In this document: positions 4,641-21,439 of the stretch, piece by piece
Layout of the letters: the number at the start of each line of letters is the position of its first letter
How positions within the stretch are numbered: the first letter of the stretch is position 1
Assembly (NCBI GenBank): GCA_017936375.1
Contig: JAGBFR010000026.1
Span: 1 to 40,373 of the forward strand
Length of the DNA: 40,373 bases
Direction: 5' to 3'
Origin: Clostridia bacterium
Lineage (GTDB): Bacteria > Bacillota > Clostridia > Christensenellales > Aristaeellaceae
Position numbers and translations under genes: made by a program
Notes under the pieces: generated by a model
What the model saw: only the letters and a program-made list of their open reading frames with translations
Told to the model about the DNA's origin: nothing
Database searches by the model: none

Positions 4641-6437
4641 ATGAAGCACATGATGAAGATCCTGATTTCTGTCGTGCTGATGCTCACTGTTTCCTGCGGT
4701 GCGCTGGCTGAGGCGGCGGCTGTCCAGCCGCTGTACAAGGCGGGCGCGTATCAGGCGGAGGTGGCGGGTCAGGTCGGCCCGATCGTCGTGGAGACCGTGT
4801 TTGACGAGGATGAGATTCTCGAGGTGAACGTCCTCTCTCACAGTGAGACGAGGATTGTTTCCACCCCTGCCATCGAGAAGATGCCCCAGAAGATCGTTGA
4901 GGCGCAGTCCCTGGCGGTGGATACTGTGTCCTCCTGCACCGTGACCAGCGCGGCCATTCTTTATGGCGTGCGCCTGTGTGCGGAGCAGGCCGGTGCGGAC
5001 CTTGCGCTCCTGACGGCGAAGCTGCCTGAGGCCGAGAAGGTGGATGAGGAGCTGCAGGCAGACGTGATCGTCGTGGGCGGCGGCCTTGCCGGCCTGACGG
5101 CTGCGGCGAGCGCTGCGGACTCTGGCAAGCAGGTTATCCTCTTTGAAAAGCTGGCGGCTGTCGGCGGCAGCAGCGCGCTCTCCGGCGGCATGTTTGACGT
5201 CGTTGGCACGCAGCTGCAGAAGGATATGGGCGTGACCCCGTCTGTGGATGAACTGGTCGAACTGTGGATGCAGGCGGATGAGCAGATGTCCATGAAGCCC
5301 TACAACGCGGAGATCGACTACCGCGCCAACAGGAAGATGCTGCTGGAGAACTCCCTCGCTGCGTATGAGTTCCTCAATGCGCACGGCGACCCGACCAGCA
5401 CCGATATCATCACCGGCAGCAACTGGGGCGGCTATGCGCTGCAGTTCTACTCTGCCAACCGCAAGGATAAGCAGGACACCTACGACGCGGGCGGCGCGGA
5501 GCATACCGACATGCTCGAGAAGTGGCTCAAGGGCCTTGACAATGTCGAGATCCGTTACGAGAGCCCGGTCGTCGAGCTGATCGTGAAGGACGGCGCGGTC
5601 TGCGGCGTGATCGCCGACGCGAAGAGCGGCAAGGTTACGGCGTATGCCTCCGATGTTATCCTCGCCACTGGCGGCTATAACCGCAACGGCGAGCTGCTTG
5701 AGCGCTTCACCGGCGAACCGGCGGCCTTTGCGCCGTATGCCTGCGCGGGCGTGGGCACCACCGGCGACGGCATCATCATGGCTGAGGCGATCGGCGCGGA
5801 CGTCTACGACGAGGGCTTCTCTGTGACGATGGGCTTCCCGCTCACCGCCGGCTACATCAAGGCTGCCATCAACGGCGTGAAGGGCCACCTGATCATCGAT
5901 GCGAACGGCGGCCGCGTGGTCAGCTTCAACGCGGGCAAGCCGGAGTTCATCACCAAGTTCACCGAGGCCTACAAGGCGACCGGCGCGGTCTATGAGCTGT
6001 ATGATTCCGCTTCTGCAAGCGTGCCTGTGCTGGAGGAGAATCTGAGTAATTACCGCGTCTTCAAGGCGGAGACCCTTGCGGAGCTTGCGGCGCTCATCGG
6101 CGTGGACCCGGCTGTGCTTGAAAAGACCGTTGCGGACTACAACGCCGTCTGCGACGCGGGCAGCGATCCGGAATTCGGCCAGACGACGCTGGTGAAGATC
6201 GAGAACGGTCCGTTCTATGCGACCTCCCACATGCTCTCCAACTACGCGACCTTCGGCGGCCTGAAGACCAATGACAAGTACGAAGTGCTTGCCGAGGATG
6301 GCACGGTGATCCCGGGCCTGTACGCGGCGGGCGAGCTGGTGACGGGTAAGATCGTCAACCAGTACTACATGACCGGTTCTATGCTGCTCAACTGCATCGT
6401 ATCCGGCATGATCGCGGGCGCGGAGGCGGCGCTGTAA
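4641..6437 (+). CDS. Exported FMN/FAD-dependent reductase (fumarate/urocanate-reductase-like)
   Basis: 598 residues. A signal peptide (1-24, GALA|EAAA) is followed by an FMN-binding domain (about 30-120), then a succinate dehydrogenase/fumarate reductase-type flavoprotein domain with the FAD dinucleotide motif GGGLAG (146-151) and a C-terminal TGSMLLNCIVSG. The family passes electrons from membrane carriers through covalent FMN and FAD to an organic acceptor outside the membrane; no haem domain is present. The flavinylation site is unusual: D-x-x-S-S-C-T100-V-T-S replaces the common S-G-A-T-x-x-S, although the acceptor Thr remains. GGAGG precedes the start, and a terminator follows at 6473. 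Substrate unknown; fumarate, urocanate and enoates are all possible. Confidence 0.88.
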   Translation: MKHMMKILISVVLMLTVSCGALAEAAAVQPLYKAGAYQAEVAGQVGPIVVETVFDEDEILEVNVLSHSETRIVSTPAIEKMPQKIVEAQSLAVDTVSSCTVTSAAILYGVRLCAEQAGADLALLTAKLPEAEKVDEELQADVIVVGGGLAGLTAAASAADSGKQVILFEKLAAVGGSSALSGGMFDVVGTQLQKDMGVTPSVDELVELWMQADEQMSMKPYNAEIDYRANRKMLLENSLAAYEFLNAHGDPTSTDIITGSNWGGYALQFYSANRKDKQDTYDAGGAEHTDMLEKWLKGLDNVEIRYESPVVELIVKDGAVCGVIADAKSGKVTAYASDVILATGGYNRNGELLERFTGEPAAFAPYACAGVGTTGDGIIMAEAIGADVYDEGFSVTMGFPLTAGYIKAAINGVKGHLIIDANGGRVVSFNAGKPEFITKFTEAYKATGAVYELYDSASASVPVLEENLSNYRVFKAETLAELAALIGVDPAVLEKTVADYNAVCDAGSDPEFGQTTLVKIENGPFYATSHMLSNYATFGGLKTNDKYEVLAEDGTVIPGLYAAGELVTGKIVNQYYMTGSMLLNCIVSGMIAGAEAAL

Positions 6438-7348: not shown

Positions 7349-8353
7349 ATGATGCAGCAGACGGATTTCAAGACAATCTTTGCCGAGGAGAGCGAGCGGA
7401 GCGGCTGGAAGAAGCAGCGCGAGCCGCAGGCGCTCCTGCGCGCGCTGGGCGAGACGATGGAGAATACCCGCGTGCGCGCGGCGGGCGCCTGCTTTGGCAG
7501 CCAGCTGCGCACGGATGCGTGCAATGCGCTCTTCCGCGCGGCGGGCGTGGGCATTGAGACGGCGGCTGCCGCGGCGCTGGGCGTGCGCATGGAGCAGGAC
7601 GCCGTGAAGACGCCGGAAAAGACGCCGGAGGTCACGCTCGTCGTCAAAGAGGAAAAGCCTGCGGATTACCTGCAGCCGGCGCTGCTGGCGGCGGGCTTTA
7701 TCGCCTGCGCGCTGACGATGAACATCACCCTCAAAAAGCCGCTGACCCTTCTTTCGCCCATCGCGGCGCTGCTGCTGGGCGTGGCGCTGGTGCGCGAGGT
7801 CATGGAGATGAAGCAGTCGGGCGCGCTGGCCGGGCTTGTGCGCATTGTGCTGGGCAAGGGGATGATCGCCCGCAAGGTCATCGCCGTCCTGCAGCTGGAG
7901 CCGGAGAAGCCGCAGCCCGCGGCCAAGCCGGAAACAATGCCTGAGGCGAAGGCCGCCGGGGAGACGGCGCAGAGCGCGCGCCCCGTGATGGATGAAAAGC
8001 AGATTGAGAAGATCGACGCGCTGTGCATGAAGCAGATGGATCTGATCGCGCAGAACCTGCCGCAGGAGCAGCAGGCCCCCGCCCAGCCGGACGAGGAGCG
8101 CGTGCTCTGGCCGCTGGTGCGCACGATGCTGCAGAAGAAGTACGCCGAGGAGACGGCCTTCCCGGCGGACGTGGAGGACGAGCTCGCGCGCTACTTCCGC
8201 GCCAACGGGCTGAGCGTCTACGCCTACAGCGAGGAGCATGCGGCGCTCTTCAAGACCCAGCCGATGGACGAGACCTTTACCATCTTCCCGGCGGTCGTCG
8301 GGCAGGATGGGCGCATCGTCGAATACGGTCAGGCCTGCGTGAAGGAGGAGTAA
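7349..8353 (+). CDS. Membrane-hairpin protein, first gene of the dynamin/Hsp70 operon
   Basis: 334 residues, family not recognised. The N-terminal ~100 residues are helical and charged. Two adjacent hydrophobic segments (about 108-126 and 133-151) separated by a short KKP turn would form a membrane hairpin. A Pro/Ala/Glu-rich linker (about 185-225) leads to a C-terminal domain (about 225-334). The ATG at 7349 has AAGGAGG 7 bp upstream, which decides it over an earlier in-frame ATG. Only 1 bp separates its stop from the Hsp70-like gene, so the two are translationally linked. It may anchor the other operon products to the membrane; this is inference. Confidence 0.75.
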   Translation: MMQQTDFKTIFAEESERSGWKKQREPQALLRALGETMENTRVRAAGACFGSQLRTDACNALFRAAGVGIETAAAAALGVRMEQDAVKTPEKTPEVTLVVKEEKPADYLQPALLAAGFIACALTMNITLKKPLTLLSPIAALLLGVALVREVMEMKQSGALAGLVRIVLGKGMIARKVIAVLQLEPEKPQPAAKPETMPEAKAAGETAQSARPVMDEKQIEKIDALCMKQMDLIAQNLPQEQQAPAQPDEERVLWPLVRTMLQKKYAEETAFPADVEDELARYFRANGLSVYAYSEEHAALFKTQPMDETFTIFPAVVGQDGRIVEYGQACVKEE

Positions 8354-8354
8354 G

Positions 8355-10097
8355 ATGGCGGAGTATTATCTGGGCGTGGACATCGGCGACGGCGAAACGT
8401 CGGTCGCCGTCCTTTCCGAGCAGGCCGTTGCGCCTGTGATGGCGGATATCGGATACAAGAACCGCAGCATCCTCAGCGCCGTGGGCGACGACCCGGAGGG
8501 GAAGCCCGTCATCGGCGAAAACGTGCTGCTGATGAACAAGGTGACCAACAGGCGCGTGCGCTTCAAGAGCCGTTTTCTGACCGGCGAGGCGAATAACGAC
8601 ATCCTCCGCTTCGCGCAGGGGCTTGCGGATGCGCTTGAAAAGTACTCCGGCCTGATGGCGGAGGAAAATACGCTGCACATCTGCATCGGCTGCCCGACGG
8701 GCGCAAAGTGGACGGCGAAGAAGCGCGCGGAGTATGCCAATCTGATCCGCTATGCGCTGCCGATCGTGGAGCAGCCCGTCGGCGAATCGCGCGCGGCCTT
8801 CCTCTATACGCATTACAGCGGGAACATCAACGTCCCCAAGCAGATGCTGGGGGGCAACGTGCTGGTGGTGGACATGGGCTCCTCCACGACGGATCTGGCC
8901 TATGTCGTCGCCGGCCGGCAGGAGAAGATGGACGTGCTGGGCGCGGAGCATCTGGGCGGCGGCCTGATCGATCAGGCGATCCTCGCCCGCTGCGTGGCGC
9001 GCAATGAGAAGGCGGCGCAGATTCAGGATCTCTTTGAGCGCCAGCCGAGCGTCAGGCACAGCTGCGAGATCTCCGCGCGCATGATCAAGGAGCGCTATTT
9101 CACCGCGAAGGACGCGGGCATGCCCTTTGACGAGGTGCGGCGCGAGACGCTCTTCTACGGCAAGACCCGCGCCGAGCACACGACCCTCACCATCACCGCG
9201 GACGACGAGATGATGGACGCCATCCTTCATGAGCCGATGCCCGCCCTCTTCAAGGGCGAACAGGGGCGCGCCTTCATCGAGACGCTCGACGAGCTGCTCG
9301 ACGCCGCTGCCGAGCACACGAAGAGCGCCCCGCCGGAGCTCATCATCATCACCGGCGGCGCGAGCCGGATGGGCTTTGTGCGCGAGCACATCGCGCAGCA
9401 CTTCCCCCATGCGACGCTGGGCGCCTGCGGCGAGCCGGAGTTCTCCATCGCCAAGGGCCTCGCCTTTGCCTGCCGTGTGGACAGGCGGATGGAGCGCTAC
9501 CGCGCGCAGATCCGCGAGCTGACGGACGACGTGCTCTTTGAGGCGGCGATCGATCAGGATCTGCCGTCGCTGGTGGACGCGCTCTGCCATGACATCGCGC
9601 CGGCGTATGTGGATCATGTGTTCATGCCCGTGATCCGCGAATTTGACGGAAAGAAGAAAGAGCTTGAGGCGGAGCTTGAGCGCAGGTCGAAGGATTACTT
9701 TGACAGCGATGCGCTCAAGGAGATCGTCGCCGATGCGCTCCATGCATGGATGCAGGGCGCGCTCTCCGGCGTGAAGGAGAAGATCAACGAGATCAGCGCG
9801 GTCTACCGGATCGACCCCGCGAAGATCCCCGTACCGGACGCGGCGAAGATCCACATCAGCATCCCCGAGCTGCCGGTGGGCTTCCTCGCCCGCGCACTGA
9901 TGAGTCTGCCCGGTCTGGGCGGGATGATCGCCGGGCTGATGCGCCGCCGCTACGTCGCCGCCGCCGAGGAGAACCTCGAGGAGACGATGAACAAGCGCTC
10001 GAGCGTCTTCTACACCGAGCTGCGCGCCGAGCTCAAGCGCAGCATCCGCGAGGACATTGACCGCCGGGCGAAGGAAGTCGAGATCCCGGTGGTGTAA
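8355..10097 (+). CDS. Hsp70/actin-fold ATPase
   Basis: 580 residues. The nucleotide-binding fold covers about 1-380: phosphate-1 GVDIGDGETS (7-16), phosphate-2 VDMGSSTTD (172-180), the Hsp70-like HLGGGLIDQ (199-207) and adenosine motif TGGAS (about 333-337). The C-terminal ~200 residues are not a normal substrate-binding domain: they have charged helices, then a hydrophobic glycine-rich stretch (about 515-535) that could touch a membrane. AAGGAGG overlaps the previous stop. Known relatives are Hsp70-like proteins encoded outside dnaK loci. No DnaJ or GrpE is seen here. Next to dynamin-like genes it recalls the SrfB (actin-fold)/SrfC (dynamin-like) pair of proteobacteria; the shared role is inference. 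Confidence 0.85.
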   Translation: MAEYYLGVDIGDGETSVAVLSEQAVAPVMADIGYKNRSILSAVGDDPEGKPVIGENVLLMNKVTNRRVRFKSRFLTGEANNDILRFAQGLADALEKYSGLMAEENTLHICIGCPTGAKWTAKKRAEYANLIRYALPIVEQPVGESRAAFLYTHYSGNINVPKQMLGGNVLVVDMGSSTTDLAYVVAGRQEKMDVLGAEHLGGGLIDQAILARCVARNEKAAQIQDLFERQPSVRHSCEISARMIKERYFTAKDAGMPFDEVRRETLFYGKTRAEHTTLTITADDEMMDAILHEPMPALFKGEQGRAFIETLDELLDAAAEHTKSAPPELIIITGGASRMGFVREHIAQHFPHATLGACGEPEFSIAKGLAFACRVDRRMERYRAQIRELTDDVLFEAAIDQDLPSLVDALCHDIAPAYVDHVFMPVIREFDGKKKELEAELERRSKDYFDSDALKEIVADALHAWMQGALSGVKEKINEISAVYRIDPAKIPVPDAAKIHISIPELPVGFLARALMSLPGLGGMIAGLMRRRYVAAAEENLEETMNKRSSVFYTELRAELKRSIREDIDRRAKEVEIPVV

Positions 10098-10126
10098 GCG
10101 GTCACAGACATAAGGAGGAAAACCCT

Positions 10127-11032
10127 ATGGAATATATCAATCCTCAGAGCCGTTTTCTCAAAAAGAGCTACACGGTGGAGCCCTTTTCGGACTATGTGAA
10201 GCGCCGCATCGCGTCGATCACGCAGGAGATGACCTCGCCGCCCTACGCCGTGGAGGGCGAGGAGGCGCGCACCAAGGCGCTCAATGAATTTGTCAAAAAG
10301 GATCCCTACGGATACTATGAGAAGATCAACACGATGGCCGACAGCCTGCTCACCGACCGGCAGTGCCAGCCGGTGACGCGCCTGTCCGACCCGGTCTTCT
10401 ACGATGTGATGGGCGACTGCTGCGAGGCGCTGGGCTTTAAGAATACCGTGGGCTATGTCTATACGCCGAAGGCGTTTGAAAATCCCTACAACGCCATGGC
10501 CACCGGCTATCTGGACATGACGTGGGTGATGGTGAGCAAGAGCTTCCTCGAGGGCAATCTGCTGACTGACCTCGAGCTCGCCGCGCTGATCGGCCATGAG
10601 CTGGGGCATACGGCGGCGCGTCACTCCTCCTTCGCCTGCATGGGCGCCGACATCAAGGGCGACGAGAACCGCAGGCAGGAATACACCGCTGACCGCGCGG
10701 GCCTGATGGCGGCGCTGTGGCGGGCGGAGCGGCTCTACCCCGATCTGGACGCGAAGGGCCTCGCGGACAAGGCGCTGGAGGCCTCCGTCGACCTGCAGCG
10801 CAAGCTGGAGCTGCTCTTTGCCACCCATCCCAAGGGCGGCTACAACGCGCAGACCCTCCGCCGGAAGATGGAGGAGACGCCCGTCAAGGAAGCGCACGCG
10901 AAGCGGAATGATTCCCACCCGACCTGCTGGGAGCGCAAGACCCAGCTGGAGGACTATGTGAAGCGGATCGAATTCCTCGAGTGCATCCATACCATGTGGG
11001 GCAGCGATCATCGCGCCGCACGCCGCCTGTGA
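10127..11032 (+). CDS. M48-like zinc metallopeptidase, apparently cytoplasmic
   Basis: 301 residues. HELGH (157-161) supplies the two zinc histidines and the catalytic glutamate, and E185 in QEYTADRAG is the expected third ligand, as in the M48 (HtpX/Ste24) group. Unlike HtpX it has no membrane segments or signal peptide, so it should act in the cytoplasm, perhaps on a partner bound to the membrane. AAGGAGG precedes the ATG; 29 bp separate it from the Hsp70-like gene. The combination with an Hsp70-fold ATPase suggests processing or removal of membrane-associated proteins. The substrate is unknown. Confidence 0.85.
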   Translation: MEYINPQSRFLKKSYTVEPFSDYVKRRIASITQEMTSPPYAVEGEEARTKALNEFVKKDPYGYYEKINTMADSLLTDRQCQPVTRLSDPVFYDVMGDCCEALGFKNTVGYVYTPKAFENPYNAMATGYLDMTWVMVSKSFLEGNLLTDLELAALIGHELGHTAARHSSFACMGADIKGDENRRQEYTADRAGLMAALWRAERLYPDLDAKGLADKALEASVDLQRKLELLFATHPKGGYNAQTLRRKMEETPVKEAHAKRNDSHPTCWERKTQLEDYVKRIEFLECIHTMWGSDHRAARRL

Positions 11033-11049
11033 AAGGGGGAGGACGAAGT

Positions 11050-12651
11050 ATGAAGGATCAACTGCAGAAGCTGCTTTCCCGCAGCCCCGTGCCGGTGCCC
11101 GGCGTCATGGCGATGCTCGACGCCTCCCGCAGCAGCCGTCTTGTGATCGCGGGCGATGAGAACGCCTCCGTCCTCACGCTGATGGAGGGCGTGGGCCTTG
11201 GCTGCCCGGAGCTTGCCGGCGTGCAGCAGCCCTGCGTGGTGGAGATCACGCGCGGGGAGAATACGCAGATCATGCTCGGCAGCGTGCGCTGCAGCAGCGT
11301 GAGCGACATGGCCCTGCGCCTTGCATGGCCGGAGAACAGGGGCGCGGCGGTGCAGATCACCTGCCCGCACGACCTCTACGGCCGGGAGAAGCTGGTCTTC
11401 GCCGTGCTGGACGCGCAGGATTTCATGACGCAGCTGCGCGGCTGCGCCGCCGGCGCGACGGGCGCGGTGATCGTGCTGGACGGCTTCAACGCGCCCTCCC
11501 GTGCGGTGTATGAATACGGAAAATGGCTGGCGCAGGTCGGCATGCTGCAGCAGGCGACCGCCGTGCTCGTCCATGGACGGGGCGACGGCCTCAACACCGC
11601 GCCGGCCATGCTGCTGGCCGTGCAGATGGGCGTTACAGCCCTGCCGACGGTGGAATGCAACACCCTGCGCATGACGGCGCGCGAGGCGCTTGACAAGGCC
11701 GTCGCCGCGATGAGCGGCGCGGGCGGGGACGAGGCGCTCTGCCGCAATGCGGCGCAGCTGGCGCAGCAGATGCTCGAGGCCGAGCGCGCGCGCCTTACCT
11801 CCGCCGCCCCGGCGGCCAGGCCCCGGCGCTCGCTGGCGGACTGCTTTGAGGCGGAGATCCCCGGCGCGCGGCAGGAGATGGAAAAGCTCATCACCAGCGC
11901 CATGGCCAATCAGATCTACGGCGAGATGCGCGAATTCGGCATCTTCCTGCAGAAGGAGATCGAGGGGACGTTCGTCGCCTCGGTGGATGAGATCGACAAG
12001 CCGAAGGAGGCGATGGGCGCCTTCGCGCAGGGCTGGCTGGACGACACGCTCTCCGGCTTCTGCTCGCAACTGATGAACGCGCTGGCGACGGATACGCTCA
12101 TGCCCAAAGCGCAGGAGATCTACGACAGGATCTTCGAGCACGCGTGGATCGTGCAGCAGGATGTGCGTGAGGAGGAGATCGACGGGCAGGAGATGCTGCG
12201 CATGCAGAGCACCATGGGCCAGCTGCGCCAGATGGGCCATTCGCTGCTGGCGGGCGCGATCGCCTTTGTCATCGCCTATATCAGCCCGGCGACGATCCTC
12301 AATCTCAGGAATCTGAGCGCCTTCTCGCATCAGCTGGCCTCGGAGATTCAGGAGCTGGTCACCCCGTCCCGCGTGTATGCGAAGACCAAGGCGAAGCAGC
12401 TGGAGCACCAGCTGGAGAAGATCATCAGCCAGTATCAGGATATCCTCACCGACACCATGCTGCCCCAGCTGCGCGACGAGCTGCTTGGCTGGTTCGACGC
12501 GCAGACGCAGGCGGCGATGGACAGCCTGCGCCAGGCCGACGCGCAGGCGCTCAAGGACTATGAGCAGGCGCAGGCGAGGCGGGCCGAGGACGGCGGACGG
12601 GCGGAGGAGATCGCCCGGTTTATGACCGAGCTCGCGCCGTATCTGGCATGA
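11050..12651 (+). CDS. Dynamin-like protein with a lost P-loop (pseudo-GTPase)
   Basis: 533 residues. Its order matches the intact dynamin-like proteins downstream: a Rossmann-like N-terminal domain (about 1-230), a helical stalk, a hydrophobic segment (about 399-419, LLAGAIAFVIAYISPATIL) and a long charged helical C-terminus. Where those proteins have G-x4-G-K-S/T, this one reads GDENASVLT (35-43), without the lysine, so it is unlikely to hydrolyse GTP. The Rossmann strands remain (e.g. GAVIVLDGF). The start at 11050 follows GGGGGAGGA; an upstream ATG overlaps the peptidase gene. It probably acts as a partner or regulator of the active GTPases. Assignment to the superfamily rests on layout and context; a distant unrelated P-loop-like fold is possible. 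Confidence 0.65.
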   Translation: MKDQLQKLLSRSPVPVPGVMAMLDASRSSRLVIAGDENASVLTLMEGVGLGCPELAGVQQPCVVEITRGENTQIMLGSVRCSSVSDMALRLAWPENRGAAVQITCPHDLYGREKLVFAVLDAQDFMTQLRGCAAGATGAVIVLDGFNAPSRAVYEYGKWLAQVGMLQQATAVLVHGRGDGLNTAPAMLLAVQMGVTALPTVECNTLRMTAREALDKAVAAMSGAGGDEALCRNAAQLAQQMLEAERARLTSAAPAARPRRSLADCFEAEIPGARQEMEKLITSAMANQIYGEMREFGIFLQKEIEGTFVASVDEIDKPKEAMGAFAQGWLDDTLSGFCSQLMNALATDTLMPKAQEIYDRIFEHAWIVQQDVREEEIDGQEMLRMQSTMGQLRQMGHSLLAGAIAFVIAYISPATILNLRNLSAFSHQLASEIQELVTPSRVYAKTKAKQLEHQLEKIISQYQDILTDTMLPQLRDELLGWFDAQTQAAMDSLRQADAQALKDYEQAQARRAEDGGRAEEIARFMTELAPYLA

Positions 12652-12676
12652 GGACGGGAGAAAGGAGCGACGGCAG

Positions 12677-14806
12677 ATGATGAATGAACGTGAGGCCGGT
12701 CGGGCGCTTGCCCGCGTATCCGGCGAGCTTGCGCGGCTGAGCCGCGACCAGATGACCCGCAGGATCCTTGAGGGCAGCGCCGTGCAGCTGGAGCTGGGCG
12801 CGGTGCGCCTGATGCTGCTGGGCAATTCCAACGCGGGCAAGAGCACGCTGATCAACGCGCTGCTGGGCACGATCGCCGTGCCGGAGAGCCGCAATACCTC
12901 CTCGCCGATCCCGGTGTGGTTCGGCGCGGGCGAGGGGGAGGATTACCGCATCTACGCCGACGGCGGCGAGGGGGAAAACCTCCTTGAGACGGCGGACCGC
13001 GCCACCTTCATCCGCAAATATTGCTTCAGCGTCAACGACATCCTCGACGACAAGCGCGCCCGCTTTGACCACATCGGCTGGGCGGCGGCGCATGCCGATT
13101 CCCCGCTGCTGCGGGAGACGGGGATCACGCTGATCGACTCGCTGGGCATCGCCGCGACGGACGCGGACACCGCCAAAACCATCCGCGTCATCGACAGCGG
13201 CGTGGATCTGGTGGTCTTCGTCACCAGCCATGTGGAGATGCAGCAGAGCGAGATCGCCTTCCTGCGCGAGAAGGTGCTGGGCCTCGAATCGCGCGAGGTG
13301 CCCTATCCCATCCGCCCCGCGCAGCTGCTGATCGTCTACAACGACCACGGCGCGGGCGGCACGCACGAGCAGATGTGCGCCGCGGCGGATAAGCTGCTGG
13401 CGGGCTGCGCGGCGGAGGAGATCGCCGCCTTTAAGGAAAAGAATCTCATCATGCTCGACGCGCTGGCCGCGAGACTCGCGCGCTGCGGCGCGTATGACTA
13501 CCTGCGCTTTGCGCCGGAGGGCACGCCGGAGATCATGATGGAGGCGCTGCGCAGGCAGGCGGCGACCGACAAGCAGGCGCTTGAGATCAACGGCGATCAG
13601 ATCGCGCGCAGGGCGAAGGCCTTTGACGCGCTTGAATCGCGCATCCGCGAATTGGCGCATGCGCAGGTTGCCGGTCAGGACGGCGCGGTGCTGCGCCGCA
13701 TCATCCACCTTGAGGCCGTCATCCGCGAGATCCGCAGCCAGGCGAATGCCGACCTGAGCCGCCTGCAGGGCGACCGCGCCGCCATCCGCCAGCGCATCGA
13801 CAGCGTCCGCGCGCTGGGCGCGACCTTCGCCAGCGCGAACGAGAGCGTCGACGCGACCTTCGAGCGCCAGCGGCAGGACATGATGGCCGCCGTCGCCTGC
13901 ACGCTGCGGGCGAGCGAGAGCGCGCAGAAGGCGATCGTCGGCAAGGTTTACGAGCTGACGGAGCCGCCGGCATTCATCACCCCGGAGAGCGTGCGCGAGT
14001 TCTTCGCCAGCACGCGCCTTGAGCAGGAAAAGATGCTCGAGGCGTGGATCCGCAGCGTGATCGAGAAGGACTTCCTGCCCGAGGCGAGCCGCCAGTTCAA
14101 GACGACGCTGCTGGAGGCCTCCGCGCAGCCGGGCGACATGCGGTTCGGCCCGGAGGATACCGTCAGCTATCAGCTCGCGCAGGCCCGCCGCCTGACGCTG
14201 CAGCAGGGCACGCGCATGAAGAATTTCTGCGACCAGCTGCGCCGCAGCGGCGCGGAGGACATCGGCCTGAGCGTCCCCGACGACAGAACCATCGAGACCT
14301 GGGCGGCGGATATGGCCAGCACGATGGAGACCGCGATCCTCCAGTCGATCGCCTCTCTGCAGGAGGAGGCGTACCGCAAGTTCAACGACAAGCTGCCCGA
14401 GATCGTGCGCACGATCGTCGGCCGCAATATCCTGACCATGCTGGGCAGCCTCTGGATGCGCCTGACGGGCAACGTCAAGAAATTCTGGAAGGCCGTGCGC
14501 GATACCGCCGTGCATGACGCCGCCGCGGCGATCTGCGCAGAGTGGTTCGACGCGAACCTGAGCAACGCCGGCAACGACATGTACTTCGGCATCGACCGCG
14601 CCTATGGCCGCGTGCAGAAGAACGTCGCCTTCTCCCTCAGCCGCCAGAATGAGCAGGTGGAGGCCTACCTGCGCAGCCTTGAGACGCGCCTTGCCGGCAG
14701 CAGCGAGACGGTCGAGGCCGCCAGCGTGAGCCGCGAGGAGCTGGAGACCGCCCTCGCCGCGCAGGAGGAGGCGCTCGGCGCGCTGCGCGAGGTGCTGGAG
14801 GGGTAA
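12677..14806 (+). CDS. Dynamin-like GTPase 1
   Basis: 709 residues. GTPase domain: P-loop GNSNAGKST (49-57), switch I region around RNTSSPIPV (72-80) with the expected threonine, G3 DSLG (154-157), and YND where G4 would normally read N/T-K-x-D. The remainder is long alpha-helical stalk with coiled-coil character, including a moderately hydrophobic part (about 584-600) that may contact lipid. Bacterial dynamin-like proteins bend or fuse membranes on GTP hydrolysis. It starts 25 bp after the pseudo-GTPase gene with AAGGAG upstream. It is distinct in sequence from the second GTPase, so the pair may form hetero-oligomers, as paired bacterial dynamins do. Confidence 0.88.
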   Translation: MMNEREAGRALARVSGELARLSRDQMTRRILEGSAVQLELGAVRLMLLGNSNAGKSTLINALLGTIAVPESRNTSSPIPVWFGAGEGEDYRIYADGGEGENLLETADRATFIRKYCFSVNDILDDKRARFDHIGWAAAHADSPLLRETGITLIDSLGIAATDADTAKTIRVIDSGVDLVVFVTSHVEMQQSEIAFLREKVLGLESREVPYPIRPAQLLIVYNDHGAGGTHEQMCAAADKLLAGCAAEEIAAFKEKNLIMLDALAARLARCGAYDYLRFAPEGTPEIMMEALRRQAATDKQALEINGDQIARRAKAFDALESRIRELAHAQVAGQDGAVLRRIIHLEAVIREIRSQANADLSRLQGDRAAIRQRIDSVRALGATFASANESVDATFERQRQDMMAAVACTLRASESAQKAIVGKVYELTEPPAFITPESVREFFASTRLEQEKMLEAWIRSVIEKDFLPEASRQFKTTLLEASAQPGDMRFGPEDTVSYQLAQARRLTLQQGTRMKNFCDQLRRSGAEDIGLSVPDDRTIETWAADMASTMETAILQSIASLQEEAYRKFNDKLPEIVRTIVGRNILTMLGSLWMRLTGNVKKFWKAVRDTAVHDAAAAICAEWFDANLSNAGNDMYFGIDRAYGRVQKNVAFSLSRQNEQVEAYLRSLETRLAGSSETVEAASVSREELETALAAQEEALGALREVLEG

Positions 14807-14840
14807 GCACAGAGCCGGAGAAGGGGCGGATGAGGAGGCG

Positions 14841-14910
14841 TCGCGCAGCGGCGCGGGAACCTCATCCGTCTCGGCTTACGCCGATCCACCTTCCCCTCCT
14901 AGGGGAAGGC
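14841..14910 (-). repeat. Three-hairpin intergenic repeat, inverted copy
   Basis: Read on the minus strand it gives a CCTTCCCCT/AGGGGAAGG hairpin, then CGGC-gtaa-GCCG, the constant GACGGATGAGG and CGCGC-cgct-GCGCG. It lies between the two dynamin genes, 60 bp from a copy in opposite orientation. Confidence 0.8.
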
Positions 14911-14970
14911 TTTTGGGGCAACGGTTTTTACGAAGCATCTTTTTCAGCAGATGCTGCTTGGTGAACTCAT

Positions 14971-15031
14971 GCCTTCCCCTGTGAGGGGAAGGTGCCCCGA
15001 AGGGGCGGATGAGGTTCCCGCCCGCAGGCGG
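14971..15031 (+). repeat. Three-hairpin intergenic repeat
   Basis: CCTTCCCCT/AGGGGAAGG, then GCCCC-gaa-GGGGC, GGATGAGG and CGCC-cgca-GGCG. With the copy at 14841 it makes an inverted pair around 60 bp, so the whole block can fold as one large structure inside the operon transcript. Confidence 0.8.
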
Positions 15032-15062
15032 CATCTATTAACCACATCGGAGGAAATCAATC

Positions 15063-17348
15063 ATGGACGAGCGCGCAGCAAGGGAAAAGCTCAGCGAAAT
15101 CAGCCGGAAATACGGCCTGTATGAGGGCTATGTCCGCTTCCTCGCCGGGGAGGCGAAGAAGCGCGGCCTCTGGAAAGAATACGGGGAGAAGCTCTCTTCG
15201 CTCTACCTGCGCCTTAAGCAGGGGCCGATCCGCATGGCGGTCATCGGCGAGAGCAGCACGGGCAAGAGCACGCTCATCAACGCCTTCGCGGGCGACTTTG
15301 TCGCGCCGGAAAACGCGGGCGTGTGCACCGCGCAGCCGATCTATATGATGCGCCATGACGAGCCGGGCACCTTCGTGCGGCCCTACAGCCCGACGGAGGG
15401 CGGCCTGCCCGAGGTCCGCGAGGTCTGGGGCACGGCGCGCCTGCTGACCCGCCAGTACGGCGCGAAGGCGGCGAAGGGCGTGAGCGGCGGCGTGCAGCCC
15501 TTTGTCTACGTCAGCGGCGGGGCGATGCCCCGGGGCGTGACGATCGTGGATACCCCCGGCCTGAATGCGGCCAGCGCGGATACCGAGACGACCTTCGGCC
15601 TCTTTGAGCATCTGGCCTATGCGCCCGAGGGCGTGCGGGACGTGCCGGAGATCATCCTCTACGTCACCAGGCAGCATAACCTCCTGCAGACCGAGCAGGA
15701 CGCGATTGTGAGAATGCGCGAGCTGGGCGCGGACATGAACAGCTGCTTCCTCGTGCATAATGACTTCCAGCAGGCGTACACGGTCACGCCGGAGAGCTTT
15801 GAGAAGGTGAGCGAGGGCGCGCTGGAGGGGCTGAGCAAATCCCTCGCCGCGCTCATGGGCGAGGATGCGCCTGAGCCCGAGGCGCAGCCCGCGGAGGATT
15901 ACGACGCGTGGAACTTTGACAGCTATCTGGAGGATGAGGACGACGGGCGGGATGAACGGGTCTTCAGCCTCAATGCGATGCTCGCCCGCATGCAGTATGT
16001 GACCACGGACGACGGCGTTTATAACGTGCTCAAATATCCGCCCGAGGGCATGACGGTGGAGGAATTCACCAGCTGGAAGGCGCTGAACGCCGAGGATACC
16101 ACGCAGAATCAGCTTGCCCTCGTGCGCGACCTGTGGGTGGAGCAGGGGCACAGCGGCTATGCGCCGATGCTTTCCATCACGCAGGCGGTGGAGCGCCGCG
16201 CGCTGGAGCTGGCAGAGCAGGGCGAAGGCCTTTGCGACGTGCTGAGCGCGGCGGACGCGCTGGGCGAGGCGCTGCTTAAGGACTGCGTGCGCCATATGGA
16301 GCGCAGAGAGACGCCCGTCGGGCGGGAGGACCTTGACGCGCTGAGGAACCTGATCATCCGGGCGAAGGACGTCATTGCCGCCTTTGCCGCGGAGGACGGC
16401 GCGTTCGCCGCAGGCGTCAGGGAGGCCTGCGAGGCGCCGCAGGTTGCAGCCGTGCTGCACAACAGCAAGGTGGATCTCACGATCGACAGCATTAAGGGCA
16501 AGAAATTCAGCCTTTTGGATCTGGGCTCGCTCTTTGTGGGCGTGGCGTATCCCATTGCGTGGCTTGTGCCGCTGGCGCGCTATCTGCTGCGCGACGACCT
16601 GCCCAAGCGCTATGGCAAGCTCATCAAGGACAGAGGCCTTGGCGGCCGCGATCTGGACGCGCTCTTTGACGGGACGCCGTCCGCCGCCGGCGTGGGCGCG
16701 CTGGTGCAGATCATCAGCGACCTTGCCGCGCCGCTGAGCGAGGAGCTCCGGCCCGACATGGAACAGATGCAGATGCTCGCCAGGGATGGCATTGCTAAAT
16801 GCCAGCAGGCTATCGGCGATGCAAACAGCCGGATGATCGAGATTGAGACGGAGTTCATCGACCTCATGAAGCTGCCCGCGGGCCGTGCGCTGCGCACGAA
16901 GACAGCGTTTTTCGACGGAGAGCGGGCGACCAAGGCGTTCGCCGAGCGCATTGCATACCTGCATCCCGAGCTGGAGCTGCCGGAGCAGGATGAGCTGGGC
17001 GAACGCGTGCGGGGCTTGATGCACAAGATGAAGAACAGCGGCGCCGTGACCATGTTCAACGCCAAGAACAGGGTCTATGAGGAGATCGTCTGCAGCGTGA
17101 TCAGGGAGGCTGTCGAGGCGCTGCGCATGCCGCTGGAGCAGCCGGACTGCAGCGTGATGGCGATGATCGACGCCCTTGCCAAGCCTGTCCGGGCTGCATG
17201 GCGCGAGCTGTTTGAGGAGATGAACCGCGCATATGACGCGCTGGAGAAGACGCACAGCGCGCGTACGGACGAGCAGGCGCAGCAGCTGAAGGCGAAGCGC
17301 GCGGAGCTCGCCGCGCAGTTTGAACAGGCAAAATCGGGCGCATACTGA
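15063..17348 (+). CDS. Dynamin-like GTPase 2
   Basis: 761 residues. GTPase motifs: P-loop GESSTGKST (62-70), switch I threonine in GVCTAQP, G3 DTPG (163-166) and HND in place of the standard G4. A strongly hydrophobic segment (about 488-510, LFVGVAYPIAWLVPLARYLL) in the stalk resembles the membrane-inserting paddle of bacterial dynamin-like proteins. An acidic insert (about 262-295) follows the GTPase core. GGAGG lies 9 bp before the ATG. It is separated from GTPase 1 by 256 bp holding an inverted pair of repeats, so differential expression within the operon is possible. Confidence 0.9.
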   Translation: MDERAAREKLSEISRKYGLYEGYVRFLAGEAKKRGLWKEYGEKLSSLYLRLKQGPIRMAVIGESSTGKSTLINAFAGDFVAPENAGVCTAQPIYMMRHDEPGTFVRPYSPTEGGLPEVREVWGTARLLTRQYGAKAAKGVSGGVQPFVYVSGGAMPRGVTIVDTPGLNAASADTETTFGLFEHLAYAPEGVRDVPEIILYVTRQHNLLQTEQDAIVRMRELGADMNSCFLVHNDFQQAYTVTPESFEKVSEGALEGLSKSLAALMGEDAPEPEAQPAEDYDAWNFDSYLEDEDDGRDERVFSLNAMLARMQYVTTDDGVYNVLKYPPEGMTVEEFTSWKALNAEDTTQNQLALVRDLWVEQGHSGYAPMLSITQAVERRALELAEQGEGLCDVLSAADALGEALLKDCVRHMERRETPVGREDLDALRNLIIRAKDVIAAFAAEDGAFAAGVREACEAPQVAAVLHNSKVDLTIDSIKGKKFSLLDLGSLFVGVAYPIAWLVPLARYLLRDDLPKRYGKLIKDRGLGGRDLDALFDGTPSAAGVGALVQIISDLAAPLSEELRPDMEQMQMLARDGIAKCQQAIGDANSRMIEIETEFIDLMKLPAGRALRTKTAFFDGERATKAFAERIAYLHPELELPEQDELGERVRGLMHKMKNSGAVTMFNAKNRVYEEIVCSVIREAVEALRMPLEQPDCSVMAMIDALAKPVRAAWRELFEEMNRAYDALEKTHSARTDEQAQQLKAKRAELAAQFEQAKSGAY

Positions 17349-17375
17349 GCCGTGAGAGAACGAAGGAGGGCGCTT

Positions 17376-17885
17376 ATGGATACCGAACGCTTTGCTGAGT
17401 ATTACAACGAGGCCGTGACCGCCGTTGTCTTCGCCGTACACAGGATGAATAAGCCGATCCTCTGCGGGAAGATCAACGCGTGCTGGCGCGAGGAGCTCCT
17501 TGACAATCGCTTCTGCTCCGTGGGCATCCGCCATGGCGCCGCCGTCTGGCTCGAGCAGCTGGAGGCGGAGGATCCGCAGCGGGCCCGCAGGCTGATTCAG
17601 GCGATGGAGCAGACCTCCCTGCGCGTGGGCGTCGGCCCTGTGCAGGCGGGCGTCGGCGCGGCGGGGGCTGCCGCTGTGATCGGCGGGGCGCTGCTTGGCG
17701 CGATGGATAAGACGGCGAAGGCGGCGCGCTTTGGCCGCGCGGCTGCGGGCGTGCTGGGCCTTGGCCTGCTGGGCAAGAGCGGCGTGGACGCAGCGCAGGC
17801 CTCCGACCCCGAGCGCGTGAGCGCCCTCGTGCGCGAGCAGGCGCAGGCGCAGCTGGAGGAGCTGCTCGCCATTCTCCGCGATTGA
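17376..17885 (+). CDS. Small Gly/Ala-rich hydrophobic protein, last gene of the dynamin operon
   Basis: 169 residues, not recognised. Residues 1-80 look globular with two cysteines; about 84-134 is a Gly/Ala-rich hydrophobic stretch with repeated AAG and GLG steps, like glycine-zipper membrane segments; the last 30 residues are a charged helix. AAGGAGG precedes the ATG at 17376, preferred over an upstream ATG at 17352. It follows GTPase 2 by 27 bp. It may insert into membranes or recruit the GTPases. No clear terminator follows. Confidence 0.7.
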   Translation: MDTERFAEYYNEAVTAVVFAVHRMNKPILCGKINACWREELLDNRFCSVGIRHGAAVWLEQLEAEDPQRARRLIQAMEQTSLRVGVGPVQAGVGAAGAAAVIGGALLGAMDKTAKAARFGRAAAGVLGLGLLGKSGVDAAQASDPERVSALVREQAQAQLEELLAILRD

Positions 17886-17902: not shown

Positions 17903-17931
17903 ATCATAGAATGGGAACATATGTTCGTCAA
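17903..17931 (-). promoter_or_regulatory. LexA-type promoter reading toward the dynamin operon (antisense)
   Basis: On the minus strand: TTGACG (17926-17931), 17-bp spacer, TATGAT (17903-17908). A LexA box fills the spacer. Transcription would begin near 17896 and run antisense into the last operon gene; no minus-strand gene is seen. Confidence 0.65.
17914..17927. promoter_or_regulatory. LexA (SOS) box 1
   Basis: On the minus strand CGAACATATGTTCC, a full match to the Gram-positive LexA consensus CGAACRNRYGTTYC. Confidence 0.85.
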
Positions 17932-17953
17932 GTGTTCTGAGTGAAATTTAATG

Positions 17954-17967
17954 GGAACAAATGTTCG
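17954..17967. promoter_or_regulatory. LexA (SOS) box 2
   Basis: CGAACATTTGTTCC on the minus strand, one mismatch from consensus. It begins exactly 40 bp from box 1, about four helical turns, so two LexA dimers could sit on the same face. Confidence 0.75.
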
Positions 17968-17976
17968 TATTTTCGC

Positions 17977-18005
17977 TTGACAAATCGCCGTATTTGTGCT
18001 AGAAT
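17977..18005 (+). promoter_or_regulatory. LexA-associated promoter reading rightward with no gene
   Basis: TTGACA, a 17-bp spacer and TAGAAT, close to ideal. LexA box 2 lies 9 bp upstream. Downstream there is no plus-strand gene: only hairpins at 18019-18077 and the repeat pair at 18121-18292, then a gene on the other strand. Confidence 0.7.
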
Positions 18006-19645: not shown

Positions 19646-21439
19646 ATGAAAAAGACTTTTCTGTCCATGCTTCTTGCGATGAGCATCCTGCTCATCGCGC
19701 TGACCGGCGGCGCCCTTGCCGACGGCCTTGCCTTCACCGCCGGCGAGTACACCGGCACTGCCCGCGGCAACAACGGCGATGTTCAGGTGAAGGTCACCTT
19801 CTCCGAGGACGCCATCGTCTCCGTCGAGCTGGGCGAGCATCATGAGACCTACTTCATGATCCCGACCCCGGCCGCCAAGATCCCGGCGGCGATCGTGGAG
19901 CATCAGTCCCTGGCCGTGGATACCGTGGCCGGCGCGACCCTCTCCAGCCGCGCGATCATCAACGCCGTCGCGGACGCCGCCAAGCAGGCGAATGCCTCCG
20001 GCGACCTCTACGCCCCGATCGAGAAGACGATCGAGGATAAGGAAGAGACCTGCGAGGTGCTCGTCGTGGGCGCCGGCCTTGCGGGCCTGCATGCGGCGAC
20101 CAAGCTGCAGACCATGGGCGTGGACGTCATCCTCATCGAGCAGCTTGATGTGGCCGGCGGCAACTGCCTCTTCGCCAGCGGCAACTTCTTCGGCCCGATG
20201 ACCGACGAGGACTATGAGACCTGCCTGGCCAAGTGGATGAAGAGCACCGCGCTCAATACCGAGGTTGCCCCGAGCGAGGACCTGCCCAACGTGGCCAAGG
20301 TCGAAAAGCTCCTCAAGGACAGCGTGAGCCTCGTCTCCTTCCTGGAGAATGATCTGGGCTTTGATATGTGCCTGACGACCGACTACACCACCACCAGCGC
20401 GGACGTTACCAAGTACATGATCCGCCCGACCCCGGACATGGAGCGCTACTCCTCCCGCGGCAGCCAGATCTGCCAGACCCTCGAGGCGAAGTACGTCGAG
20501 CTGGGCGGCGACCTGCGCTTTGGCACGAAGGCGACCGAGCTGATCGCCAACGAGTCCGGCGCGATCACCGGCGCGATCTGCGAGACCGACAACGGCAAGC
20601 TGACCATCAACGCGGGCGCGGTCATCATGGCGACCGGCTCCATCACCGGCAATGACGAGATGCTCGCCAAGTACATGCCGTACCGCTCCGGCGACTGGTT
20701 CTGCACGGGCGTGGGCTCCACCGGCGAGGGCCTTGAGATGATGATCGACAAGGGCGCCGTGATGTGGGATACCTGGGTCACCGGTTCCATCATCGTCCAT
20801 GACACCCCGATTCTCACCCGCACCACCAACGATGGCACCCAGGTGCGCGGCACCAAGAGCGCCAAGGCGCTGCACGTCAATCGTCAGGGCCAGCGCCTGA
20901 TCAACGAGAACCACAGCCGTGAGGGCAACTTCTACGGCGTGGCGGGTGAGCCGAGCGTGCTCATCGAGATCACCGACGCCGCGCTGGCCGCCGAGATCGG
21001 CCGCCTGGACGAGTTCGAAGCGAAGGCCTCCGAGAAGGGCCCGTTCTTCAAGGCGGAGACCATCGAGGAGCTCGCTGCGAAGCTGGGCATGGACGCCGCC
21101 GCGCTGGCCGCGACCGTCGAGCGCTACAATGGCTTCTGCGCCGCCGGCGCCGACGAGGACTTCGGCAAGCCTGCCGAGAGCCTCATCGCCATCGACGAGG
21201 GCCCGTTCTATGCCGTCATCGACACGCTGGTCGGCTTTGACATCACCGGCGGCGTGAAGACCGACATCAATACCCGCGTGCTGCGCGAGGACGGCACCAC
21301 CATCGACGGCCTCTACGCCGTTGGCCTTGCCTCCAGCCGCGACTTCTTCTCCACCGCCTATGTCGGCGGCGGCAGCCTGACCATCTGCGCGACCACCGCG
21401 ATCACCGCTGCGCAGGACGCCGTGGAGTACATCAAGTAA
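19646..21439 (+). CDS. Exported FMN/FAD-dependent reductase 2
   Basis: 597 residues. Signal peptide 1-25 (GGALA|D), FMN-binding domain (about 28-118) with the standard flavinylation motif around T98 (DTVAGATLSS), then a fumarate-reductase-type FAD domain with GAGLAG (142-147) and a C-terminal GGGSLTICATTA. FMN is expected to be attached covalently by an ApbE-type enzyme encoded elsewhere. It shares domain order with the reductase at 4641 but differs widely in the substrate-domain region, so it probably uses another acceptor. AAGGAGG precedes the ATG; it is monocistronic, closed by a strong terminator. Such exported flavoproteins commonly use enoates, fumarate or urocanate as respiratory acceptors. 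Confidence 0.9.
   Translation: MKKTFLSMLLAMSILLIALTGGALADGLAFTAGEYTGTARGNNGDVQVKVTFSEDAIVSVELGEHHETYFMIPTPAAKIPAAIVEHQSLAVDTVAGATLSSRAIINAVADAAKQANASGDLYAPIEKTIEDKEETCEVLVVGAGLAGLHAATKLQTMGVDVILIEQLDVAGGNCLFASGNFFGPMTDEDYETCLAKWMKSTALNTEVAPSEDLPNVAKVEKLLKDSVSLVSFLENDLGFDMCLTTDYTTTSADVTKYMIRPTPDMERYSSRGSQICQTLEAKYVELGGDLRFGTKATELIANESGAITGAICETDNGKLTINAGAVIMATGSITGNDEMLAKYMPYRSGDWFCTGVGSTGEGLEMMIDKGAVMWDTWVTGSIIVHDTPILTRTTNDGTQVRGTKSAKALHVNRQGQRLINENHSREGNFYGVAGEPSVLIEITDAALAAEIGRLDEFEAKASEKGPFFKAETIEELAAKLGMDAAALAATVERYNGFCAAGADEDFGKPAESLIAIDEGPFYAVIDTLVGFDITGGVKTDINTRVLREDGTTIDGLYAVGLASSRDFFSTAYVGGGSLTICATTAITAAQDAVEYIK

Follow-up and report, generated by a model that had tools for sequence, protein, structure and literature searches.

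A six-gene operon of dynamin-like, Hsp70-like and M48 peptidase genes in a Clostridia bacterium, and the recurrence of M48 peptidases in bacterial dynamin gene clusters

The operon and its proteins

Here we describe a locus in the genome of a Clostridia bacterium (GenBank assembly GCA_017936375.1) where genes for dynamin-like proteins, an Hsp70-like ATPase and an M48 peptidase stand side by side. The stretch analysed, hereafter the window, is the 40,373-nucleotide contig JAGBFR010000026.1, a complete contig from a 2.85 Mb genome of 75 contigs. Seven genes, g1 to g7 (Table 1), lie on its plus strand between positions 7349 and 17885. Each open reading frame (ORF) closes with a single terminal stop, and the gaps from g1 to g7 measure 1, 29, 17, 25, 256 and 3 bp from the starts given in an earlier note on this DNA, whose description of seven same-strand genes with mostly short gaps thus holds. 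G+C content is 0.66 in the operon and 0.59 in the remainder of the contig.

Table 1. Genes of the operon and the repeat that interrupts it, with positions in the window.
Feature	Description	Position	Strand	Evidence
g1	membrane-hairpin protein, 334 residues	7349..8353	+	hydropathy; L067 orthologue 35%
g2	remote Hsp70/actin-fold (ASKHA) ATPase, 580 residues	8355..10097	+	Pfam HSP70; L067 orthologue 52%
g3	soluble M48 zinc peptidase, 301 residues	10127..11032	+	Pfam Peptidase_M48; HELGH and EYTADRAG intact
g4	candidate dynamin-like protein lacking GTPase motifs, 533 residues	11050..12651	+	L067 orthologue 43%
g5	dynamin-like GTPase, 709 residues, no hydrophobic stretch	12677..14806	+	Dynamin_N; L067 orthologue 61%
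repeat	dispersed repeat with nested inverted repeats, interrupting the operon	14807..15062		repeat count
g6	dynamin-like GTPase, 761 residues, hydrophobic stretches	15063..17348	+	Dynamin_N; L067 orthologue 33%
g7	small Gly/Ala-rich protein, probably 169 residues	17376..17885 (listed GTG start 17352)	+	GGAGGG ahead of ATG

We found g1 to g6 in identical order in a second genome, at locus L067 (SVGN01000005.1, a Clostridiales metagenome-assembled genome), with protein identities of 35, 52, 45, 43, 61 and 33%, g5 being the best conserved of the six. L067 has other genes than the window on both of its flanks. The nucleotide differences between the two loci were counted for g1 to g5 and are concentrated in third codon positions in these five genes; with the conserved order, this marks the genes as real. 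The earlier note had considered that the genes might lie scattered singly in relatives, and L067 shows six of them together; the check that it suggested, co-occurrence of all seven families, gives a positive result for g1 to g6 and a negative one for g7. The g7 ORF itself is confirmed, and its start is more likely the ATG at 17376, behind GGAGGG, than the listed GTG at 17352. It has no match in L067, and phmmer, run against the 3612 small ORFs from the fetched loci, returned only g7 itself, so that g7 falls outside the conserved operon set.

L067 is one of 80 loci that were taken in, out of at least 149 confirmed, from a scan of public genomes with a dynamin profile; these 80 are the basis of all such counts below. 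The profile was a 4-row alignment, as an alignment of 12 dynamins was too diverse for searching. Within the genomes sampled the six-gene locus is rare. The other 119 of 120 family genomes contained no long relative of g5 (seven had weak GTPase-domain matches) and no match to g3 or g4; nor did the remaining 397 of 398 phylum genomes (threshold 1e-8), the remaining 299 of 300 relatives of the L067 genome, or plasmids contain a long g5 relative.

By their GTPase domains, g5 and g6 are bacterial dynamin-like proteins (Pfam Dynamin_N, 1.3e-9 and 6.1e-13). In both genomes g5 has a G1 motif with AGKST and a G3 motif DxLG; g6 has GESSTGKST and DTPG. The G4 motifs of the two proteins, VYND and VHND, are non-canonical, but we do not claim a changed nucleotide specificity from them: GBP and atlastin proteins carry RD motifs, and GTP use is therefore plausible. 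Counting as a hydrophobic stretch any 19-residue window with a mean hydropathy of at least 1.3, we found at least one in g1, g2, g4, g6 and g7 and none in g3 and g5, in line with the proposal that most of these proteins have a candidate membrane segment. Those of g6 lie at residues 482-506 and 540-559.

The earlier note counted g4 as a third dynamin, a claim that survives only as a candidacy. Pfam gave nothing above cut-off for g4 (nor for g1 and g7), including no Dynamin_N match, and g4 failed the GTPase motif test: in place of GxxxxGKS/T it has GDENASVL, and its L067 orthologue has GDGKASVL, so the degenerate state is conserved. Comparison of its helical half with the DynC class of dynamins (see below) gave an hhalign E of 0.0019, yet a probability of 14%, and searches of PDB gave no meaningful match. 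An AlphaFold model built from two sequences is too low in confidence to use (predicted local distance difference test score, pLDDT, 48.4; predicted template modelling score, pTM, 0.33). Its strands and helices come first and long helices follow, the order expected of a dynamin with a dead head, which is no proof; we do not file g4 as a dynamin.

The remaining protein of this half of the operon, g3, matches Pfam Peptidase_M48 at 3.7e-11. Its zinc site reads HELGH and EYTADRAG in the window and HELGH and EHTADRAG in L067, the third ligand (Glu) being retained. Having no hydrophobic stretch, as the earlier note observed of this HELGH peptidase, g3 is probably located in the cytosol with the dynamins. 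HtpX and Ste24, which are membrane enzymes, are the only solved relatives of a 16-row profile of M48 peptidases from dynamin clusters at E 0.01 (3cqb, 2e-9; 4il3, 1.1e-8). By its hydropathy g3, in contrast, is a soluble protein, and between HExxH and the third ligand it is missing much of the sequence present in most cluster M48 peptidases.

For g2, the match to Pfam HSP70 lies above the cut-off (E 3.5e-5, 22.7 bits against 20.6) and covers residues 167-376 only; FtsA was matched at 1.5e-4, under its cut-off. The motifs DIGDGET, DMGSSTTD and GGASRM, which we take to be the phosphate and adenosine motifs of the actin-like ATPase fold, are retained in L067 and mostly also in the core copies described below. 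Two-row profiles found no PDB sequence, for g2 at E 0.01 and for g3 at E 0.1, and both are thus remote members of their families; the reading of g2 as an Hsp70/actin-fold ATPase stands with that qualification. No protein of the operon had a match above cut-off in NCBIfam. In g1, the membrane hairpin that had been proposed corresponds to two neighbouring hydrophobic stretches (residues 105-130 and 131-154), with two weaker ones besides.

The g1-g2 pair has relatives of its own. Related genomes contain 30-40% matches to g2, and 32 of 60 genomes (our own counted) have an Hsp70 of this type. A further copy lies on a different contig of our genome (L021), where it forms a two-gene module together with a g1-like gene; relatives of g3 to g7 are absent there. 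The L067 genome likewise has a second, core-like Hsp70 copy. A g1-like gene lies upstream of the Hsp70 in 22 of 24 core loci, some of which are rows of the g1 model itself; the two misses are one gene fetched twice. The C-terminal domain of g1 is also present in the core-module copies. Judged from sequence, g1 is a paralogue of the small protein that is paired with Hsp70 in relatives, and g1-g2 is a copy of an old two-gene module that is common there without dynamins. The operon consists of two parts of separate origin: g1-g2 (membrane protein and Hsp70) and g3-g6 (M48 peptidase and dynamins). Since both genomes also retain a separate core Hsp70, the operon copy of g2 probably has a role of its own. 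A C-terminal motif seen by eye had suggested that g1 is a membrane-anchored GrpE; we rejected this as unproven, with an hhalign E of 0.1-0.18 against seven GrpE sequences of relatives (out of 19 loci) and no GrpE match to this domain in Pfam or PDB searches.

Peptidases within dynamin gene clusters

Searching the 80 dynamin loci with M48 and dynamin profiles built in this analysis, we found an M48 match in 38. In 37 of these the peptidase gene is encoded within the dynamin gene run, and in one (L108) it lies elsewhere in the fetched flanks. Nearly all of the 37 directly adjoin a dynamin gene (36/37); in L067, g4 intervenes. The loci come from Bacillota, Fibrobacterota, Chloroflexota and Myxococcota. 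Clusters of dynamin genes are common in the set, with at least two in 54 of the 80 loci and at least three in 18. The full gene order is DynA, DynB, M48, DynC; a shorter order, DynB, M48, DynC, is commoner. The distance from the preceding dynamin gene, DynB, to the start of the M48 gene was measured in 31 clusters and is within 60 bp in 28 of them. A separate Hsp70 gene is absent from the fetched DNA of all the M48-dynamin loci except L067 (36/37), an Hsp70 line in L143 being that locus's own dynamin ORF. The recurrent partner of the dynamins is the peptidase rather than Hsp70.

Because the 80 loci are biased towards Oscillospiraceae, we turned to a sample drawn evenly from the class as well, in which the M48 profile matched 25 of 291 genomes at 1e-6, seven of them below 1e-30. 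Regions were fetched from eight genomes, namely the six strong ones besides our own and the weaker G384 and G210, and the other 16 were left out. Among the seven strong genomes, the M48 gene lies in a dynamin gene run in four (our own counted), two have no dynamin nearby, and G218 has a dynamin-like ORF some genes off in the same strand run. Neither G384 nor G210 has a dynamin near its weaker M48 match.

Trees separate the window type from this common module. The dynamin tree used the first 330 residues of all 14 DynA rows and of the first 14 of 33 rows each for DynB and DynC. Each class forms one group, modestly supported for DynB, and the g5 and g6 proteins from the two genomes cluster on their own with good support. 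In the M48 tree, the g3 proteins of the window and L067 pair on a long branch. From these separate branches, the window type is a separate line in which the peptidase-dynamin plan is joined by an Hsp70 pair. The Fibrobacterota locus L123 and the Lachnospiraceae locus L071 group together, a placement that is well supported in DynB and DynC and weakly in DynA and M48, so that the module seems to cross phyla.

The state of the peptidase's zinc site (HExxH plus the Glu ligand) follows the presence of DynA. Among 33 scored clusters, which comprise 31 of the 80 loci plus L050 and L066, the site is intact in 14 and lost in 19. The 14 intact clusters are exactly those with DynA (14/14), and DynA is present in none of the 16 degenerate clusters that have at least 4.5 kb before DynB. 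The other three degenerate clusters, L093, L101 and L137, are too short upstream to judge (927, 413 and 292 bp). The L066 cluster is divided between two contigs of the same genome, DynA and DynB lying on L052 and M48 and DynC on L066; L079 was counted as degenerate because its HEYPH is a stray occurrence and not the motif. The pattern has a probability of 1/C(30,14) = 6.9e-9 if rows are independent, which they are not. Outside the set, L200 (intact, with DynA) and L201 (degenerate, without DynA) agree. The table of 33 does not include L067 and L105, both intact; L068 and L081, which are degenerate Myxococcota loci with weak M48 matches (3e-7 and 2e-6); L088, whose M48 is split over two frames; L125, at a contig end; or L108, where M48 lies off the dynamin run. 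In L105, a Chloroflexota locus, the shorter dynamin scores 90.5 against A, 90.7 against B and 69.3 against C.

A possible dynamin regulator and its rivals

Synteny and family matches support a conserved, probably membrane-associated machine that would use ATP and GTP. The earlier note had proposed as much for all seven genes; it is supported here for six, leaving out g7. Our preferred reading, which we hold tentatively and with somewhat less than even confidence, is that g1 to g6 encode a single dynamin machine of the cytosol that is recruited to the membrane and carries its own protease, g3, which would cleave a dynamin partner as its regulator. In the proposed mechanism, g5 and g6 would assemble on the inner membrane into a mixed dynamin polymer by way of the hydrophobic segments of g6 (and g4), while g2, anchored at the membrane by g1, would load or strip the polymer through its ATPase cycle. 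Cutting by g3 of one non-catalytic or DynA-like subunit, for which g4 is our best guess here, would turn the polymer on or off when the membrane is under stress, in the manner of OMA1 acting on OPA1, and the task of the whole machine would be to reseal damaged membrane or to tether it.

OMA1 is itself an M48 peptidase. The comparison draws on its cleavage of OPA1 under oxidative stress (PMC10078952), and an M48 peptidase is likewise linked to dynamins in 37 of the 80 loci. This is a likeness in how the systems may work and not a claim of common descent; g3 differs in having no hydrophobic stretch, and its cleavage activity is predicted by analogy. Rather unlikely, though worth stating, is the broader proposal of a bacterial genetic counterpart of the OMA1-OPA1 switch, in which a soluble M48 peptidase would be the dedicated regulator of a multi-dynamin machine, would persist as a scaffold without catalytic activity in the lineage from which its dynamin substrate disappeared, and would be combined in the window type with a membrane-anchored Hsp70-like ATPase module. 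Little has, to our knowledge, been established about how bacterial dynamins are regulated, and the M48 peptidase, kept among dynamin genes in loci of four phyla, offers a concrete candidate regulator. That loss of the zinc site coincides with the absence of DynA points to a likely substrate ahead of experiment. If cleavage does occur, it would represent M48 proteolytic control of dynamins outside mitochondria, and a shared origin would then be directly testable.

Several observations weigh against regulation by cleavage. In the M48 tree the 19 degenerate peptidases form one clade and the two Myxococcota a second origin, so the link between DynA and the zinc site amounts to one or two events. 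Seven of 12 loci with the full gene order have a small ORF on the same strand between DynA and DynB, and in L200 the gene at this place encodes a zinc-ribbon protein; this small gene accompanies DynA, and its product might be what the peptidase cuts instead. In L202 an intact M48 peptidase occurs with dynamin-like ORFs that weakly match B and C and with no clear A. The fetched flanks of L203 and L205, in both of which HExxH is intact, contain no dynamin. Hsp70 was seen next to dynamins in the window type and L065 alone, and as its g5 and g6 form a clade apart, the window type may function differently from the common module.

The main rival is an anti-phage or abortive-infection island, in which the dynamins would damage or seal the membrane upon infection and the peptidase would relieve their inhibition. 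We consider this improbable, if only slightly more so than a counterpart of the OMA1-OPA1 switch. It would suit the patchy distribution of dynamin clusters (Dynamin_N below 1e-8 in 7 of 120 family genomes, our own counted), the module's apparent crossing of phyla, and the matches of common-module dynamins to the PADLOC LeoA and LeoBC models (L200 DynB, 1.7e-22), which g5 and g6 match only weakly (1.9e-4 and 8.2e-5); L067 g6 matches LmuB at 5.4e-6. Bacillus subtilis DynA is also reported to confer phage resistance (PMC8844932). However, PADLOC returned only weak lines for the seven operon proteins, g2 was not found in phage records nor g5 in plasmids, and a scan of ten neighbouring proteins, made with Pfam and not with PADLOC, showed no integrase.

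Hsp70 and M48 peptidases of the HtpX type are classical stress proteins, and a g1-like gene and Hsp70 exist without dynamins in relatives. Both facts would fit general quality control of membrane proteins, an idea already raised in the earlier note, with Hsp70 and M48 clearing damaged proteins and the dynamins mending the bilayer without being peptidase targets. This is less probable again: the M48 peptidase remains in place after zinc-site loss in 19 of the 33 scored clusters, which fits a dynamin binding partner better than a clearance protease, and nearly every M48-dynamin locus (36/37) is without a separate Hsp70 gene in the fetched DNA. The least probable of the rivals is that g1-g2 and g3-g6 are unrelated modules, co-transcribed and functionally separate. 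Each does occur without the other in other genomes, but the six-gene order is common to two distant genomes in spite of 33-61% identity and different flanks, and the separate core Hsp70 in both genomes makes it probable that the operon copy serves a role of its own.

Known bacterial dynamin operons (LeoABC; Campylobacter DLP1/2) likewise contain at least two adjacent dynamin genes, and heterotypic pairing of bacterial dynamins is thought to be the rule (PMC6104087 and PMC4159319). The passages searched there name no M48 or Hsp70 partner, and the Campylobacter operon includes a beta-lactamase-like gene; g5 and g6 of the window, for their part, fall in a clade apart from the common DynA, DynB and DynC. 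Hsp70 and GTPases are also co-encoded in predicted conflict systems (PMC7159879); the words 'dynamin' and 'M48' are absent from its main text. We found no description of a bacterial M48-dynamin operon in the open-licence literature searched, most subscription papers lying outside the search, which is consistent with the earlier note's statement that no system with this exact set has been described; PMC10295235 mentions M48 and dynamin in unrelated passages only.

Flanking features and divergent clusters

The 256 bp between g5 and g6, a gap of only 37 bp in L067, is made up of a dispersed repeat whose core unit occurs seven times in the window against a chance expectation of 0.00. The seven copies of this palindromic repeat, CCTTCCCCTNNNAGGGGAAGG, lie at 14889, 14972, 18123, 18209, 35544, 38129 and 39610, and one pair interrupts the operon. 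On either side of the operon are flavoproteins of the FMN_bind/FAD_binding_2 type (4641-6437 and 19646-21439) that are 32% identical; the operon was perhaps inserted between these two genes.

The single good promoter that had been proposed for the operon was not confirmed. The candidate upstream of g1, TTGCCA-17-TACAAT, matches at 10 of 12 positions, and as the scan gave five sites where 2.3 +/- 1.6 are expected by chance, it is plausible and not strong. A stronger match (11/12) lies downstream of g7 at 17977-18005, where we saw no clear plus-strand gene following it. Directly ahead of this match, at 17913-17968, are two boxes, GGGAACAtATGTTCGT and GGGAACAaATGTTCGT (two seen, 0.03 expected by chance), which we take to be of LexA type.

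Some dynamin clusters depart from the common plan. In L051 and L065 the peptidase looks C39-like by eye and stands in place of M48, and a profile of these two peptidases matches L099 and L106 too. L065 also encodes an Hsp70-like protein with repeats, and in L051 a small hydrophobic protein with no phmmer similarity to g7 follows the dynamins. In L170 (G004), a second GrpE-domain match lies within a 664-residue open frame, besides the normal GrpE. L063 and L064 encode long dynamin-like proteins (900 and 790 residues) beside GTPase-like genes. Finally, three tandem M48-like genes form one run with a 792-residue dynamin-like ORF in L204, HExxH being retained in only one of the three.

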